IMG/VR virus record: IMGVR_UViG_3300044675_000972
Coordinates: 1 to 22,849 of that record
DNA: 22,849 nucleotides
Strand: one strand, 5' to 3'
Source: a virus
Part shown: positions 479 to 22,309 of the stretch, in pieces
How positions within the stretch are numbered: the stretch's first letter is position 1
How the letters are laid out: each line of letters begins with the position of its first letter
Program-made: the position numbers and the translations under genes
Notes under the pieces: model-generated
Told to the model about the DNA's origin: nothing
The model's database searches: none
What the model saw: only the letters and a program-made list of their open reading frames with translations

Positions 479-859
479 ATGATTTTTGGACCTTTAAATG
501 ATGAAACCTTCACGATGTATGCCATGAAGGAATATGACAATCCTTTCTGTAAGGGATTAGCAGAATTCAATGAAGACATCAATCGTATAAAGTATGTTAA
601 AAGGCTCCTAAATCGATACGATAAGAAAAAGATTCTAAAAGAAAGATTGATTTTAAACCACATAATTATATTGAATAATGTATTTGGTAATGAAGCTTGC
701 TCTAGAATCTTGTTTTATAAAGTTTGTCCACATTTACATCCATACTTGAGATCTTTTTTAGATTATTTACAGATACTACCACGAAGAATTCCTGAAGTCG
801 ATTTGAATAAAACTCCAAGTGACCATAGGATAACAACAATTTTAAATGAGCTAAAATGA
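479..859 (+). CDS. Conserved hypothetical protein of T4-like phages
   Basis: This 126-aa, largely helical, basic protein has the segments NPFCKGLAEF, EDINRIKYVKRLL and ERLILNHIIILNNVFG. The pattern resembles a small uncharacterised protein that recurs in T4-like marine phages; I recall it from memory and cannot search. There is no signal peptide or membrane span. No clear Shine-Dalgarno sequence precedes the ATG, so translation may be coupled to the upstream gene, which ends 6 bases earlier. Its TGA overlaps the ATG of the next gene (ATGA at 856-859), which supports both reading frames. Function unknown. Confidence 0.85.
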   Translation: MIFGPLNDETFTMYAMKEYDNPFCKGLAEFNEDINRIKYVKRLLNRYDKKKILKERLILNHIIILNNVFGNEACSRILFYKVCPHLHPYLRSFLDYLQILPRRIPEVDLNKTPSDHRITTILNELK

Positions 860-2505
860 ATCTATCTTTTTCCGAAATCGTAACTAGTTTCACCGTCTGG
901 GAATTCTTGTCACAACTGGCAAAACCATTCAATCAGATGGATATTTACAGAGTAGGAATCATTGATGCTCGTGGTAAATTTCTAAAGGAACCAAAAGACT
1001 ATGAAACTGTTCGAGAGAGAACAGCTGGTAGTGCTTTTAATAGATTAGTTGTCATACTAAAACGTGCTCTGTTAACATCAGCTGATCCGGTTGTTCGCTA
1101 TACTGTAACAAATCCCACCGCAGCTCTTAATGCACTAGCAGAAGAAGTAGAATCGTTTGGTGGGAATGGTCAACAGTTTCTTGATAATGTGTCATACATC
1201 TTCGAAGATGGCATGTCAGTGGGTGGTGGTGGATTGGCTGGTGTGAGTAATATTAGTAACTTGGATGCTGAACCAGAGAATGCTGGGAATGTTGTGGTGT
1301 CTCCCAAATCGGCAGCAAAGTATAAGAAATCTGGTCCTAGACGAAGACGCATGTTTGAAGAACTGCTAGCAGAAGCAAAAGGTCGCGTTGTAGAGACTAC
1401 AGGACATATGACGCATCTTGGTGACTTTCTCTACTATGGTGCTCCAGATCACGCTATAAAGCACCTAGAAGCTGTCCACAGACGTTTTAGCACCGGAGCA
1501 TCAACACCTAACCATAAGATGTCGTTAAAAGCAGATGGTGGTATGAGTATTGTTCTTAAACGACATAAGGATGGAACTGCAGCTGTGGCATATAAGTCAG
1601 GAGCTGCTGAATATACTACTCCGGAACAAATTCATGCAACTGGAAAAGCCCATCTAATCAAAGAACTAATTCCAGCTCTAGACTTTACCAGAAGATCTTC
1701 GATAAAACCGGGAAGAGCCATCCAGGGCGATTTGATGTTTACTCAAGCTCATCCTGGCAGAATACAACCAAATGCCATTCATTATCATGCACCAGCTGAC
1801 GCATCATTTGGATTTGCTCCACACTCAGAATATACAACAGATGGCTTAAATCTTCGTAAAGTTTCTAGTCATCCAGATACGTCTGGATTGAAAGTCTCTG
1901 GTGCTTGGATTCCCGATTTGGCAATTACCAAACAGACCAAATTAGGTCTTCATCCAAAATTACATAAAACTGTTTCTTCATCTATCGCTGCTGCAAAGAA
2001 AATTCTAGCAAATAAAGATATAGCAAAGTTTGCAAAGACTTTACCAAGTGATACAAAGTTCCATAGAATGGTTCAGGAGTATTCAAATCATGCAGCAAGA
2101 ACAACCGGAGAACGAACAACTCAAGGGTTGAGAGAGTTCATTCCTGTTCATATGGCAAAATCCTCACAAAAAGGATTGTCTGACAAAACCAAGAAAACAA
2201 TGACAGATTCATTTCATTCTACAATAGATCAACACGGATCATCTATTGGTGGTTTATTTCAAGCACATGCACATATCAATAATGCCAAACATGCAATACT
2301 AGATCAGTTTAAAACACACTCCGATCAGTTTCCAGGCTTAAAAACTCACGCAGAAGAAGAACATGAAGGCTTTGTGTCTTCTATGGGAAAACCGGGAGTA
2401 TCAGAAACTCAAGCCAAATTTGTGCGAGAGGGTCCTGGTGGATTCCCAGCTAAGAACACAGAAAATGCCGCAAAAAGATTCGGTCCTGGCGCTACTACGT
2501 CATAA
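856..2505 (+). CDS. DUF6267-like phage protein with nucleotidyltransferase-like KxDG motif
   Basis: This 549-aa protein starts at the ATG overlapping the previous stop. Residues about 15-75 form an N-terminal block (FNQMDIYRVGIIDARGKFL, then NRLVVILKRALL) resembling the start of large uncharacterised proteins of T4-like cyanophages. Residues about 100-160 are a Gly/Ser-rich linker ending in a basic patch (PRRRR, 161-165). Residues about 182-330 resemble the DUF6267 core: HLGDFLYYG, then K225-A-D-G228, then VAYKSG (244-249), then IQGDLMFT (289-296) and QPNAIHYHAP. The C-terminal ~150 residues are helical and basic. KxDG followed by Lys-rich and GD/GE motifs recalls the covalent nucleotidyltransferase fold of DNA and RNA ligases, but this is an inference. 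It lies among late plus-strand genes, and its stop codon is part of the late promoter box of the next gene. Confidence 0.8.
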   Translation: MNLSFSEIVTSFTVWEFLSQLAKPFNQMDIYRVGIIDARGKFLKEPKDYETVRERTAGSAFNRLVVILKRALLTSADPVVRYTVTNPTAALNALAEEVESFGGNGQQFLDNVSYIFEDGMSVGGGGLAGVSNISNLDAEPENAGNVVVSPKSAAKYKKSGPRRRRMFEELLAEAKGRVVETTGHMTHLGDFLYYGAPDHAIKHLEAVHRRFSTGASTPNHKMSLKADGGMSIVLKRHKDGTAAVAYKSGAAEYTTPEQIHATGKAHLIKELIPALDFTRRSSIKPGRAIQGDLMFTQAHPGRIQPNAIHYHAPADASFGFAPHSEYTTDGLNLRKVSSHPDTSGLKVSGAWIPDLAITKQTKLGLHPKLHKTVSSSIAAAKKILANKDIAKFAKTLPSDTKFHRMVQEYSNHAARTTGERTTQGLREFIPVHMAKSSQKGLSDKTKKTMTDSFHSTIDQHGSSIGGLFQAHAHINNAKHAILDQFKTHSDQFPGLKTHAEEEHEGFVSSMGKPGVSETQAKFVREGPGGFPAKNTENAAKRFGPGATTS

Positions 2506-2973: not shown

Positions 2974-3261
2974 ATGAGAATTATTTTACTAATCGGCATA
3001 TCATTACTCCTATTTGGTTGTAATGTTTCTCCAACTATTGTTCCAGACATGAGTGGCGACAGTGTAGTTATGATGCAACTAAAAGACCAGATCGCACAAG
3101 CGGGTGGAGTAAAAGCTTCATATGGTTGGGTTTTGTGGTATGCTCCCATCGCAGTTATAACTGCACTATGGGCATATAGAGAATTTGTTCGCAGACCTTT
3201 GTTGTGTGAAGATGGTCAACACAAAGATGAACCAGTAGTAAAACCAGATCAGCCAGTATAA
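2974..3261 (+). CDS. Small lipoprotein or membrane protein, possible lysis accessory
   Basis: This 95-aa protein begins with a basic residue and a hydrophobic stretch ending in a lipobox-like LLFGC with Cys16, as in bacterial lipoproteins. A 30-residue polar segment follows, then a second hydrophobic helix (about 50-67, WVLWYAPIAVITALWAY), a basic stop-transfer patch (EFVRRP) and an acidic/Pro tail. AAGGAG at 2963-2968 overlaps the previous stop codon and lies 5 bases before the ATG, so the two genes are tightly coupled. An outer-membrane spanin subunit is one option, but a classical o-spanin lacks an internal membrane helix, so the topology is unclear. A two-TM inner-membrane partner of the holin-like protein fits as well. 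Confidence 0.7.
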   Translation: MRIILLIGISLLLFGCNVSPTIVPDMSGDSVVMMQLKDQIAQAGGVKASYGWVLWYAPIAVITALWAYREFVRRPLLCEDGQHKDEPVVKPDQPV

Positions 3262-3286
3262 ACAAAAACATACCAGTGACGGTATG
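3260..3286 (-). terminator. Minus-strand intrinsic terminator
   Basis: On the minus strand, CATACC (3286-3281), loop GTCACT and GGTATG (3274-3269) form a perfect 6-bp stem. TTTTTGTTT follows (3268-3260). The T tract lies on the minus-strand side only, so it should stop leftward transcription immediately before it enters the convergent plus-strand genes. It closes either the ruvC-like transcription unit or the candidate RNA described at 3260-3483. Confidence 0.6.
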
Positions 3287-3401
3287 AGTTTGCTCTCGCG
3301 GGTACGAGATATTACAGAGAAAGGGATCATGCGAAAAAGGACTAAAATGATTTTACCGATGCACCCTCAATGTGAACTTTTCCAAAGGGGACCCCTATTA
3401 C

Positions 3402-3418
3402 AAGGAGGTGATCCAGCC
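3402..3418 (+). other. 17-bp match to the reverse complement of the 16S rRNA 3' end
   Basis: AAGGAGGTGATCCAGCC is the exact reverse complement of the 3'-terminal GGCTGGATCACCTCCTT found in many bacterial 16S rRNAs. It is much longer than any ordinary Shine-Dalgarno, and no ATG lies at a usable distance downstream (the next is 24 bases away). The flanks do not continue into helix 45 of 16S, so it is not a simple rRNA gene fragment. Confidence 0.85.
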
Positions 3419-3488
3419 ACGACACTTTGGGTAAATCCTCGAATGAGAGGAGCTGATAAGGTCAATCCCAATTCAACTGTTGGTAAGG

Positions 3489-3496
3489 TATTTATA
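3489..3496 (-). promoter_or_regulatory. Orphan T4-type late promoter TATAAATA
   Basis: This is a perfect TATAAATA octamer on the minus strand, in the gap after the ruvC-like stop codon (3526-3528). It points towards 3262, where no minus-strand protein gene exists before the terminator at 3260-3286. It therefore either drives a noncoding RNA or occurs by chance in AT-rich DNA. Confidence 0.45.
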
Positions 3497-3525
3497 CATT
3501 ACGCAGTTTGAATAAACAAATCATA

Positions 3526-4086
3526 CTAGTTTGAGGCAGAAATCTTCTGCCAAAGGCTCTTGCAGATGTAATAAGAGTCTACGATGTCGGAAACGGGGTT
3601 TCCGACATCTTTTTTATTGGGACTAACGATGTCTTTCAGCATCACGCCAGTTTCTAATACAAAAGACTCGTACATCTTCGTCTTGTCCGCGTTCCCCTTG
3701 CCCGTTGCGTTCTTCTTCACTACTGTTGGTGGGAATGTCTCTATTGGTATCATTTGTTGATACAGTTTGTATTTGAGAATACCCGTGTTCTCCGCTATAT
3801 GGAACACGCGGCCCTTGGCTGCGTAAGCGTAGTCTTCTATGCCAACCATCGTGCAACCTATTAGGTACTGCATCGCCCAATCCGAAATTGTGTCGTATCT
3901 TTTGCATTCGTGATCATAATCCTCAAAAGGTTCTCCGCGAACATTTCCTAGAAACAAAGTATGCATTTTCTTTACATCAGAAAGAAAATATATCATACAA
4001 TGTTCAAATATAAATTTACCAGATGCAGAGTTGTATATGCAAATGCTAGGTGAAGTTAAACTGTAATCTACACCTGCTATTATCAT
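3526..4086 (-). CDS. RuvC-like Holliday-junction resolvase (RNase H fold)
   Basis: This 186-aa protein has the acidic residues and layout of RuvC-type endonucleases: GVDYSL with D7 on strand 1, GIEDYAY with E84 (and D85), and C-terminal PVSDIVDSYY with D167 and D170. Between them are HIAENTGILKYKLYQQ and FPPTVVKKNATGKGNADK, matching the usual glycine/lysine substrate region. Such enzymes cut four-way or branched DNA during recombination and packaging; T4 uses the unrelated gp49. I chose the ATG at 4086 because MIIAGVDYS is a typical RuvC start; a TTG at 4125 would add 13 unlikely residues overlapping the micropeptide gene. No Shine-Dalgarno is visible. A CATAAATA box at 4099-4092 would place the transcript start on the A of this ATG. 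The 3' part contains a plus-strand terminator (3583-3615). Confidence 0.85.
   Translation of the reverse strand: MIIAGVDYSLTSPSICIYNSASGKFIFEHCMIYFLSDVKKMHTLFLGNVRGEPFEDYDHECKRYDTISDWAMQYLIGCTMVGIEDYAYAAKGRVFHIAENTGILKYKLYQQMIPIETFPPTVVKKNATGKGNADKTKMYESFVLETGVMLKDIVSPNKKDVGNPVSDIVDSYYICKSLWQKISASN
3583..3615 (+). terminator. Strong plus-strand terminator inside the ruvC-like coding region
   Basis: GATGTCGGAAAC (3583-3594) and GTTTCCGACATC (3598-3609) form a perfect 12-bp stem with loop GGG and are followed by TTTTTT (3610-3615). The T tract is on the plus strand, so it should end the rightward late transcripts that leave the lipoprotein gene at 3261. On the minus strand the arms are in codon register: one encodes D-V-G-N, the loop P, the other V-S-D-I, including putative catalytic D167. 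Confidence 0.8.
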
Positions 4087-4114: not shown

Positions 4115-4201
4115 TTATATTCCAATGATTCTGGCTAAAATGATTCCAATCAAAAAACCACAAGCAGCTACTAATCCACGCTGTATTTTGTTTAATTGCA
4201 T
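4115..4201 (-). CDS. 28-aa single-span membrane micropeptide
   Basis: The frame runs ATG 4201 to TAA 4115 and encodes MQLNKIQRGLVAACGFLIG followed by IILARIIGI. A short basic N-terminus precedes one hydrophobic helix of about 18 residues with small residues (AACG) that could mediate helix packing. GAGGAG lies 5 bases before the ATG, a better ribosome site than those of its neighbours. The start overlaps the last codons of the protease gene (shared bases 4192-4201), implying translational coupling. Its coding region crosses the alternative TTG start of the ruvC-like gene and favours the shorter ruvC start. The function is unknown; it may work with the protease lipoprotein in the envelope. Coding status is inferred from ribosome site, overlap and composition. 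Confidence 0.6.
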   Translation of the reverse strand: MQLNKIQRGLVAACGFLIGIILARIIGI

Positions 4202-4962
4202 ATAATCTCCTCTGTTTTTTCTATCCAATCAATCAATTCCGGAAGTCTGATTACATTATTTTCATACAAGCGTTCACGATAAACTAAAAGAGAAGATATG
4301 ATGCCAATTAGTAATCCATTCTCATCTACTATTGCACCACCAGAATCTCCAAACCACACACTACCAAATATTGGTAACATTTTAAAAGACCAAGGTTCTT
4401 CTATTGTGGTGCCAAAATAAGAAAAGGTGTCGGGATTGCTTTTCTTCTTGACTCCACCACCATAACCAATTGCACAAATAGATTGCAATTTTGTGTAGGT
4501 ATAAGTTTTAGGTACTAGTTGTAGTGGAGTAATTGTAGAAGGATACTTTAATAGAATTAAACCAACGTCTATTACTAATACATCTCCAATTTTATACATT
4601 GGGTGTAGAACAAAACTTTCCACTTCGTTTAACATTCCGCCAGCAATGAACCATTTTGCTTGTTGTCCATCTAAACAATGCCCTGCGGTAATTGCAATGT
4701 TTGGATGAATGAGAACAGCAGAACCTATAAGGTTTCCAGAATCGGTTGCTAAGAATCCAATAGCTGGGTCTTGAGTTTCCTCCAACAGCATAAAGCCCCG
4801 CAAGAATAATGGTGTCTCTTGCGGGGCTTCTGCTATTGGTTCAAGTTCCCCACACTTAGGTGGGGGTGCGCTAGGCGCATCGGTAGTGACGTTTGGTGTA
4901 CATGCTTGAAGCAAGACAAGTACAAGAAATATCCGAAGAGAATTTAAAACTCCTCTCTTCAT
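4192..4962 (-). CDS. Lipoprotein trypsin-like serine protease
   Basis: This 256-aa protein starts with a basic N-region (MKRG), a hydrophobic helix and a lipobox LLQAC with Cys21, followed by a Thr/Pro/Ala-rich linker to about residue 45. The rest matches the chymotrypsin/trypsin (S1) family. ITAGHC gives His95, VIDVGLILL gives Asp132, and GDSGGAIV gives Ser207 with the oxyanion glycines. LIGSAVLIHPNIAITAGH is the typical strand before the histidine, and a C-terminal helix (LPELIDWIEK) ends the domain. Triad order and spacing are intact, so an active enzyme is likely. By family logic it would be exported by Sec, lipidated at Cys21 and anchored in the periplasm-facing envelope. Exported proteases are unusual cargo for a T4-like phage; superinfection exclusion, envelope remodelling or lysis support are possible. 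No clear Shine-Dalgarno precedes the ATG. Confidence 0.9.
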   Translation of the reverse strand: MKRGVLNSLRIFLVLVLLQACTPNVTTDAPSAPPPKCGELEPIAEAPQETPLFLRGFMLLEETQDPAIGFLATDSGNLIGSAVLIHPNIAITAGHCLDGQQAKWFIAGGMLNEVESFVLHPMYKIGDVLVIDVGLILLKYPSTITPLQLVPKTYTYTKLQSICAIGYGGGVKKKSNPDTFSYFGTTIEEPWSFKMLPIFGSVWFGDSGGAIVDENGLLIGIISSLLVYRERLYENNVIRLPELIDWIEKTEEIICN

Positions 4963-5002: not shown

Positions 5003-6925
5003 TTAACTAGTAAGATCTACTAACTCACACTTGTCTCCACTACATGCAAACTGTTGAGTTCCTGTAGTCTTGTCTTCCTTCTCATACTTGTGTAGATCTG
5101 ACCAATTCACATTCTTGGGCATCTTCTCAGTCAATGCTTCAAACTCTTCTTTAGAACATTCTTGATATGGTGCTTGACGATAACTATGATCGCTGTGTGG
5201 TAAGAAAGAAATACCACTGATCTCATCGAAGTGCTTATACACCCATGCACCAACTTCCATCCATTCGTTCTCACGAACAGTTACGGTGATGCTTGGTTTA
5301 TGCTCACACCAGAATCTTTGATATGTTAGCCAAAGACTCAGATGATCAAGCGCAGAAAGATCATTACGAGTTAAACATCCATCTGGCGACTTAGTTGGGA
5401 ATGAGAACACCATGACCGAATCTGGTTTCATCACGCACTTCTCGTGCGGAAATCCCATATCGATCATCATATTGCAAAGAGGATCTTTCTGATCTGCTCG
5501 AACAGTACGAATGTAGTATTCGCTGTGACGAGGATGAATACCAGAAGCAGCATCGACCAATTGTGAGACTGTGCCACTTGGTTTCACACAAGTAATTGCT
5601 GCAGCTGGATTGATTCCAAGCTTCTTAGCAAAATCCTTGTTTGTCTTAATGGCTAGTTCTCTGAGCTGGATCAACCCCTTCTCCAGATTGATGACATCAT
5701 TTGCCATATTCTCATTGTCAAGAATGCCAGTTAGAGATACACCCAACAATGCCTCTTCTTCACAGTTCTTCTTCCATTCACTGGATAGGTATGGGAAGTC
5801 TGTCAAAGACGCTTGGAATGTACCTAGGATCGTCGCTAAGCGAACCTTACGAGCAAGATCCTCAGCGGTGTCAGAAGCGCGTACAATGACTTCTGAGAGG
5901 TTACAGAACTGTCTGTCGCGTAGGATGATCTCCGAGCAAGGATTGGTTCCAAACTCGTATGTTGCGTCTCTACGATCACCCAGTTTTGCTACGGTTTTCT
6001 TGCAGGCTTCACGATTAAAGATGCCACGTTCGCCACTCTTGCTCTTATATAAAGACACCCATTCTTCCATAAAGACACCAATGTCTGGCTTTTCTTTGTA
6101 GACAACGGAATTGTTGGCAAGAGCACGCTGCGGATTTTCATTCCACCATGCTCCAGATTTGGCATCCCGCATTCTCTCATCAGTGAGATTGCTGAGAGAA
6201 ATAAGTGCGGATCGGCGCACACCTCCCACCACGACAACTTCTGCAACTTTACATACGATATCGTGACACTCAAGGGAAGTGAGTTTGCGGCCTGCACCTT
6301 TCTTAAAAGTATCAACAGTAAATCTAAAGAGATCTTCAAGCGGCCCCGGGCCACTAGCACGCCCACCAAAGGTTTTGAGTCGGGCGCCAGAAGGACGAAC
6401 CTTTGAGACATCCCACTTGGGAATTTGACCACCAATAAGTAGAGATACAAGCTCCCTATATGCTTTAGCCCAACCAGCTTTGCTATCTTGAACAACAATA
6501 GTGGTCTCACTGTTTGTGAATTCCTCTGCGATAGTTGGTAACTTTTCAACATATTGTCTTTCGACAGAGAATCCGACGCCGGTTCCACACATGAGTATAT
6601 AGAGAATCTCATCAAATGCCCGAACTCTATTAACAGCAACATAAGAACAATTATATCCGGCGGTGTTGTCGCGCTCTAAAGCTTCACCGGATGTCATCAA
6701 TGATCTCATTGAAGGCATGATTTCTAAAGTTAAAACTGCAGTCTCTAATTCTTTGCGAAGACTTCCGGAAAGTATAAACTTATTATTTTCCTTTAATTTA
6801 TTCTCAAAAAAATCAAAGTATCGCTTAACGGTTTCTTCCCATGTCTCGCGGCGGTTTTCGCTCTCAATCCATCGTGAGTAGCGCGAAAGGTGAATAAAGT
6901 CTTGATATAGATTTGGTAAACTCAT
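5003..6925 (-). CDS. nrdJ: Class II (adenosylcobalamin-dependent) ribonucleotide reductase
   Basis: This 640-aa enzyme reduces ribonucleotides to deoxyribonucleotides through a thiyl radical generated by adenosylcobalamin. The active site is N328-P-C330-S-E332 (thiyl Cys330 with Asn and Glu), and Cys341 follows 11 residues later, the same spacing as C408/C419 of Lactobacillus RTPR. Its redox partner is Cys93 in AGYNCSYV. GTGVGFSVE (114-122) and VKPSGT are other family signatures. The C-terminal CSGDKC is the shuttle pair that accepts electrons from thioredoxin or glutaredoxin. It is single-chain with no NrdB partner nearby, and somewhat shorter than the roughly 740-aa bacterial RTPR. AGGA precedes the ATG. 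It is last in the dut-to-nrdJ gene run, 28 bases after thyX. Dependence on host cobalamin is inferred. Confidence 0.93.
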   Translation of the reverse strand: MSLPNLYQDFIHLSRYSRWIESENRRETWEETVKRYFDFFENKLKENNKFILSGSLRKELETAVLTLEIMPSMRSLMTSGEALERDNTAGYNCSYVAVNRVRAFDEILYILMCGTGVGFSVERQYVEKLPTIAEEFTNSETTIVVQDSKAGWAKAYRELVSLLIGGQIPKWDVSKVRPSGARLKTFGGRASGPGPLEDLFRFTVDTFKKGAGRKLTSLECHDIVCKVAEVVVVGGVRRSALISLSNLTDERMRDAKSGAWWNENPQRALANNSVVYKEKPDIGVFMEEWVSLYKSKSGERGIFNREACKKTVAKLGDRRDATYEFGTNPCSEIILRDRQFCNLSEVIVRASDTAEDLARKVRLATILGTFQASLTDFPYLSSEWKKNCEEEALLGVSLTGILDNENMANDVINLEKGLIQLRELAIKTNKDFAKKLGINPAAAITCVKPSGTVSQLVDAASGIHPRHSEYYIRTVRADQKDPLCNMMIDMGFPHEKCVMKPDSVMVFSFPTKSPDGCLTRNDLSALDHLSLWLTYQRFWCEHKPSITVTVRENEWMEVGAWVYKHFDEISGISFLPHSDHSYRQAPYQECSKEEFEALTEKMPKNVNWSDLHKYEKEDKTTGTQQFACSGDKCELVDLTS

Positions 6926-22301: not shown

Positions 22302-22309
22302 TATTTATG
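22302..22309 (-). promoter_or_regulatory. Late promoter box CATAAATA, near-leaderless start
   Basis: The box is followed by TTAAC, a predicted start at 22296 and the ATG at 22294. The downstream gene lacks a Shine-Dalgarno, which agrees with a 2-base leader. It sits in the 35-base gap between the 46-aa gene and the 460-aa gene. Confidence 0.45.

Follow-up and report, generated by a model that had tools for sequence, protein, structure and literature searches.

Analysis of a 22.8-kb T4-like phage fragment from IMG/VR (the window, meaning the whole stretch of DNA analysed), whose polymerase is ~50% identical to those of cyanophages, revealed a conserved element of ~225 nt carrying an exact copy of the 3′ tail of 16S rRNA. 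We favour the reading that this element is expressed late from the minus strand as a structured non-coding RNA of ~224 nt which mimics the 16S 3′ tail, Era being its likeliest target, and we give this reading a probability of roughly 40%. Judged from sequence evidence, the element is very probably a real functional RNA and is probably made from the minus strand, the 16S match itself is reasonably likely to be functional, and the choice of Era as the target is tentative.

Conservation and absence of coding constraint

The element was located between a small lipoprotein-like gene (2974–3261, plus strand) and a gene encoding a RuvC-like resolvase (3526–4086, minus strand); its features are given in Table 1. 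A search with the resolvase, together with pattern scans, gathered 26 IMG/VR contigs (14 distinct sequences) from one T4-like clade, in all of which the entire element was conserved and flanked by the same two genes. It was not found at the same gene junction in outgroup phages. More distant phages did not have the element after RuvC, and in many of them the lipoprotein gene followed directly, so that the element looks like a clade-specific insertion. No homologue was seen in known phages, and nothing was returned when the DNA of the region was searched directly; when 20 related long records were searched with a covariance model, neither a second copy nor a distant homologue was found, and an Rfam search with the element gave no match. 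Elsewhere in the window, 4192–4962 (minus strand) encoded a predicted lipoprotein with a trypsin-like protease domain, which is unusual in a phage, and 856–2505 (plus strand) encoded a 549-amino acid DUF6267 protein adjoining a DUF7207 protein, both families being of unknown function. The two small genes downstream of these were taken for lysis genes.

Table 1. Positions of the element's features in the window and of the related hairpin in other phages
Feature	Position	Strand	Comment
Late-promoter box TATAAATA	3489..3496	−	Invariant in 14/14 distinct sequences; transcription start expected near 3483
Proposed non-coding RNA, ~224 nt	3260..3483	−	Conserved at the nucleotide level without codon phase; folds better than column shuffles
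Intrinsic terminator CATACC-GUCACU-GGUAUG then UUUUUGUUU	3260..3286	−	Relatives retain a hairpin and T tract; stem sequence differs
16S rRNA 3′ tail copy GGCUGGAUCACCUCCUU	3402..3418	−	Exact match; 3404–3418 (15 nt) invariant in the family
AGGGGUCC	3389..3396	−	Invariant; in the consensus fold a possible partner of GGAUC-a-CCU in the copy, which would mask it
GAGGAUU arm of helix H3	3434..3440	−	Competes for GGUCC at 3389–3393; the copy then lies in a loop
CUCUCA arm of helix H2	3444..3449	−	Partner UGAGRG at 3364–3369
Hairpin H6	3294..3309	−	UCUCG/CGAGA here, UUCAA/UUGGA and UCCU/AGGA in relatives; double-sided changes, hand alignment
Open frame on the other strand	3347..3511 (also as 3284–3511)	+	Judged not a gene from codon-position counts and pN/pS
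Terminator of the plus-strand lysis transcript, inside the RuvC gene	3583..3615	+	Perfect 12-bp palindrome then T6
L143-type hairpin	L143/L144 2900–2995; L250–L256 near 1420–1480		Preceded by a gene encoding a product with a porin-like end

Alignment of the 14 distinct sequences showed the 15-mer GGCTGGATCACCTCC (minus strand) to be invariant in every one, and the late box was invariant in all 14 as well; the terminator hairpin and T tract were kept in relatives with differing stems. On the minus-strand RNA the invariant block reads GGCUGGAUCACCUCC. Its end fell precisely at CUCC, also where the two bases after it varied (the last two bases of the 17-nt match were CG instead of TT in the clade comprising L026, L027 and L035), and it reached upstream beyond the anti-Shine-Dalgarno sequence, GGCUGGAUCA being kept. 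An invariant run of 15 nt is only mildly unusual here, as most core columns of the element were invariant.

The original prediction had seen no credible gene in this stretch. An open frame does exist on the plus strand (3284–3511), and it behaved as non-coding rather than as a protein conserved through synonymous changes, in support of that view. Its variable columns were spread over the three codon positions as 22/22/23, with a pN/pS of 0.90 and a pS of only 0.22, whereas the flanking genes had a pS of 0.5–0.6: the adjacent RuvC gene showed 37/18/102 variable columns (pN/pS 0.19, pS 0.52) and the adjacent lipoprotein gene 59/45/82 (pN/pS 0.48, pS 0.60). The element had neither the third-position excess nor the low pN/pS of a protein gene. 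Its core showed no codon phase on either strand; the constraint acts on nucleotides.

Promoter, terminator and predicted fold

The late box was found 74–78 nt upstream of the copy on the minus strand, and the hairpin CATACCGTCACTGGTATG followed by TTTTTGTTT lies at the other end of the element. The sequence NATAAATA is a published cyanophage late promoter (PMC2984593), and a box of this type stands at the start of the proposed RNA, as in T4-like late transcripts. In a 75-kb relative, no 7-mer was more enriched upstream of ORFs than ATAAATA, with 10 occurrences where 0.95 were expected; the full 8-mer TATAAATA showed no genome-wide enrichment over its reversed control. Within the window, ATAAATA also occurred shortly upstream of gene starts at 22308, 16710 and 4098 (minus strand) and at 2502 (plus strand), and three further sites fell inside genes. 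Because the late box and terminator are conserved, ATAAATA is enriched and the element behaves as non-coding, we interpret it as a probable late non-coding RNA of the minus strand. The perfect T4 late box, the minus-strand hairpin with its T tract and the late RNA of ~224 nt between them, carrying the 16S tail sequence, had all been put forward in the original prediction; both signals were found as described, and the RNA is supported at the sequence level by these signals, by conservation and by the non-coding behaviour. On the plus strand, the palindrome and T6 that cover the RuvC codons for DVGNPVSDI can serve as a terminator for a converging transcript, and plus-strand transcripts may read through the element to that point.

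The alignment folded better than column shuffles on both strands (z −8.0 for minus and −6.9 for plus); these scores and the counts of double-sided changes rest on an alignment in which two 3′ hairpins were aligned by hand. Double-sided changes were seen in hairpin H6, and neither covariation nor wobble counts separated the strands. As covariation left the strand undecided, the minus strand was chosen because the promoter and terminator lie on it. A first count of G-U asymmetry, made on helices from the minus-strand fold, had favoured minus; this was dropped as strand evidence because a symmetric re-test, using each strand's own consensus fold, gave no separation. The double-sided counts of the terminator stem were not relied on since they are partly due to register choices in AC repeats. 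One pair of helix H3 changed between A-U and G-C, but was A.C in three sequences. Short possible stems precede the copy and showed no covariation.

Two competing pairings were predicted for the invariant GGUCC, one with GAGGAUU (H3), which places the copy in a large apical loop, and one with the copy itself, which hides it. The copy may thus be masked, as predicted folds often pair part of it with AGGGGUCC; depending on the clade, the base-pair probabilities for this pairing lay anywhere between about 0 and 0.9. The competing pairings around the copy could be a switch.

Rarity and recurrence of the 16S tail match

The plus-strand sequence AAGGAGGTGATCCAGCC, which is GGCTGGATCACCTCCTT on the minus strand, is the exact reverse complement of a 16S rRNA 3′ end of the latter type; the 16S tail is GAUCACCUCCUUA (PMC6107228). 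This 17-bp match, on which the original prediction was built, was recovered as the single exact match in the window. The accompanying claim was that a 17-mer match would not be expected by chance in a window of this size; in the window, two sites with three or fewer mismatches were found against 0.07 expected from shuffles. The exact 17-mer was present in 32 of 2.9 million viral contigs, 23 of which belonged to this T4-like family and nine of which were unrelated; the latter were mostly coding sequence, and one of the nine had a 16S-like context at the contig end. Chance 17-mer matches do arise across the whole viral collection, and the window was chosen for study because of its 16S match. The match alone is weak proof because matches of the same length recur several times in the collection without this element; it gains weight because it is conserved inside a non-coding element bracketed by a promoter and a terminator.

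Searches of known phages with the 16S tail returned rRNA contaminants, a coding match in a Klebsiella phage, an intergenic site in PhiPA3 with two mismatches and an RBS complement. Additionally, 101 matches from a pattern scan of genome contigs were judged, as a set, to be chance. A site within the ribonucleotide reductase gene (5664–5680), whose mRNA could base-pair with the copy at 14 of its 17 positions and form wobble pairs in addition, was rejected as an mRNA target; it is probably due to chance because it lies mid-gene and is not kept in the close relative L016, which has no such site within three mismatches.

A second occurrence was found in a distant marine-type T4-like group (L143, L144 and L250–L256), where GCUGGAUCACCUCC lies inside a stem-loop before a terminator. 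The copy, GCTGGATCACCTCC, is in a hairpin closed by CATTAAAT/ATTTAATG, beside a strong terminator upstream of RuvC, and ends at CTCC; the predicted fold pairs part of it within the hairpin. A relative with 92% identity retained it and one with 73% identity lacked it; it is absent from L257. The chance of such a 14-mer in the loci searched was estimated at several per cent, and we therefore regard this copy as support, short of proof.

Alternative readings and the proposed target

Era is an essential assembly GTPase. According to PMC10582724, which cites Tu et al. 2009 and 2011, it recognises GAUCA together with CCUCC beside helix 45, and the ten bases recognised by its KH domain are GAUCACCUCC. 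This site was present and invariant in the family, the invariant block spanning the end of the helix 45 strand and all ten bases. The proposed transcript is sense to the 16S tail and has the same 15 nt, including the full Era site, as the 16S 3′ end that Era recognises, whereas helix 45 and the GGAACC loop of the Era-bound form are not demonstrated in the phage RNA. The rest of the phage RNA we take to be unrelated in sequence to the 16S region around the Era site. Among 14 related records, no phage-encoded bS21 that might link the element to the tail was found.

The original prediction had proposed that the RNA could pair with Shine-Dalgarno sites. Repression of host or phage mRNAs by such pairing through CCUCC(UU) now appears unlikely, even though CCUCC is present and conserved in the element and sRNAs with ultraconserved anti-Shine-Dalgarno loop motifs, the alpha-r14/cuckoo family, are known (PMC10746234). 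Such pairing needs only CCUCC(UU), yet GGCUGGAUCA is inside the invariant block; the L026/L027/L035 clade has lost the 3′ UU expected to pair with AAGGAGG; and none of the gene starts of the 75-kb relative and the window (phage genes only) had an extended complement of at least 9 nt, which argues against tuned mRNA pairing. A decoy of the tail is favoured over an mRNA antisense because the block extends past the anti-Shine-Dalgarno sequence, matches the Era site and has no extended complement at gene starts. The alpha-r14/cuckoo sRNAs of alphaproteobacteria are, like the phage RNA, small and structured with an ultraconserved anti-Shine-Dalgarno-type motif, in their case in unpaired regions (PMC10746234). 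They are, however, bacterial and have several hairpins each with CCUCCUCCC, whereas the phage RNA has one motif that is different, longer and identical to the 16S tail; CCUCCUCCC was absent from the phage element, which contains one CCUCC.

It is equally improbable that a real conserved element, for example a DNA site or an RNA antisense to the late lysis transcript at its 3′ end, matches the 16S tail by coincidence. Scattered 17-mer matches elsewhere and the selection of the window for its match speak for coincidence, and the lysis transcript of the plus strand probably runs across the entire element, its nearest strong terminator being the one within RuvC; the fact that the matching block is unchanged across 14 distinct sequences and the separate L143-type copy speak against it.

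We consider it more doubtful still that read-through from the lysis operon displays AAGGAGGUGAUCCAGCC, which is complementary to the whole 16S tail, and so captures 30S subunits without initiation. A late box precedes the lysis genes (2502), a strong plus-strand terminator lies beyond the element and extended Shine-Dalgarno sequences of the same sequence precede start codons in other, unrelated phages. Against this, no start codon follows AAGGAGGUGAUCCAGCC at usable spacing in any clade, no dedicated plus-strand promoter was seen for the element, the bracketing promoter and terminator point the other way and the L143-type copy is sense to 16S rRNA on the strand of its terminator. The extended Shine-Dalgarno sequences of phage genes (the L264-type nucleotidyltransferase-like gene and Lacticaseibacillus phage R9.1) share the string (A)AGGAGGTGATCC(A) on one strand, but they directly precede the start codon of a gene, whereas the element has neither a start codon nor coding constraint. 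In L264, L271, L274, L276, L277, L297, L306, L309 and L314, TAGGAGGTGATCCAGCC-ATG was observed directly before a gene with the FGRFQPPTSGH nucleotidyltransferase-like motif; TAGGAGGTGATCCAGCC is an extended Shine-Dalgarno sequence complementary to ~16 nt of the 16S tail and was kept across several variants.

A small plus-strand protein gene (MVLPKH...GPLLQGGDPA.TLW.NP.MRGVDKVNP...), with the 16S match as a by-product of its codons, had looked plausible because the frame is open in every clade, and it has an AAGGA-like motif 5–7 nt before the ATG at 3347 and one indel of 3 nt, but it was ruled out to a very small residual probability by the codon-position test, by a frameshift near its end in one clade, by zero synonymous changes in GGA GGT GAT CCA GCC in any clade and by a product with no protein family match and no tblastn match in phages.

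Under the favoured reading of an RNA that mimics the 16S tail, transcription late in infection from the minus strand would present the exact copy of the tail, and the KH domain of Era, which binds GAUCACCUCC just after helix 45, would be captured by it. Titration of Era or of another tail-binding factor would then slow the assembly of new 30S subunits or the maturation of the tail. What the sequences show directly is the copy and its conservation, together with the late box, the terminator and the absence of protein constraint; from these we infer that the RNA is transcribed and from which strand, that its copy of the tail is accessible and what it targets. The fullest form of the proposal, that such a decoy shuts off the assembly of new host ribosomes in late infection and was invented independently at least twice among T4-like phages, is speculative and, on balance, somewhat unlikely. 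The papers searched described no phage strategy of RNA mimicry acting on ribosome assembly. Should the RNA prove to be expressed and to bind a factor of the 16S tail, the phage would be using RNA mimicry as a takeover device directed at ribosome assembly, and the RNA would offer a natural probe of the conserved interaction between Era and the tail. Even with mRNA targets, a late phage RNA with an invariant copy of the 16S tail would represent a testable form of RNA-level translation control in metagenomic T4-like phages.
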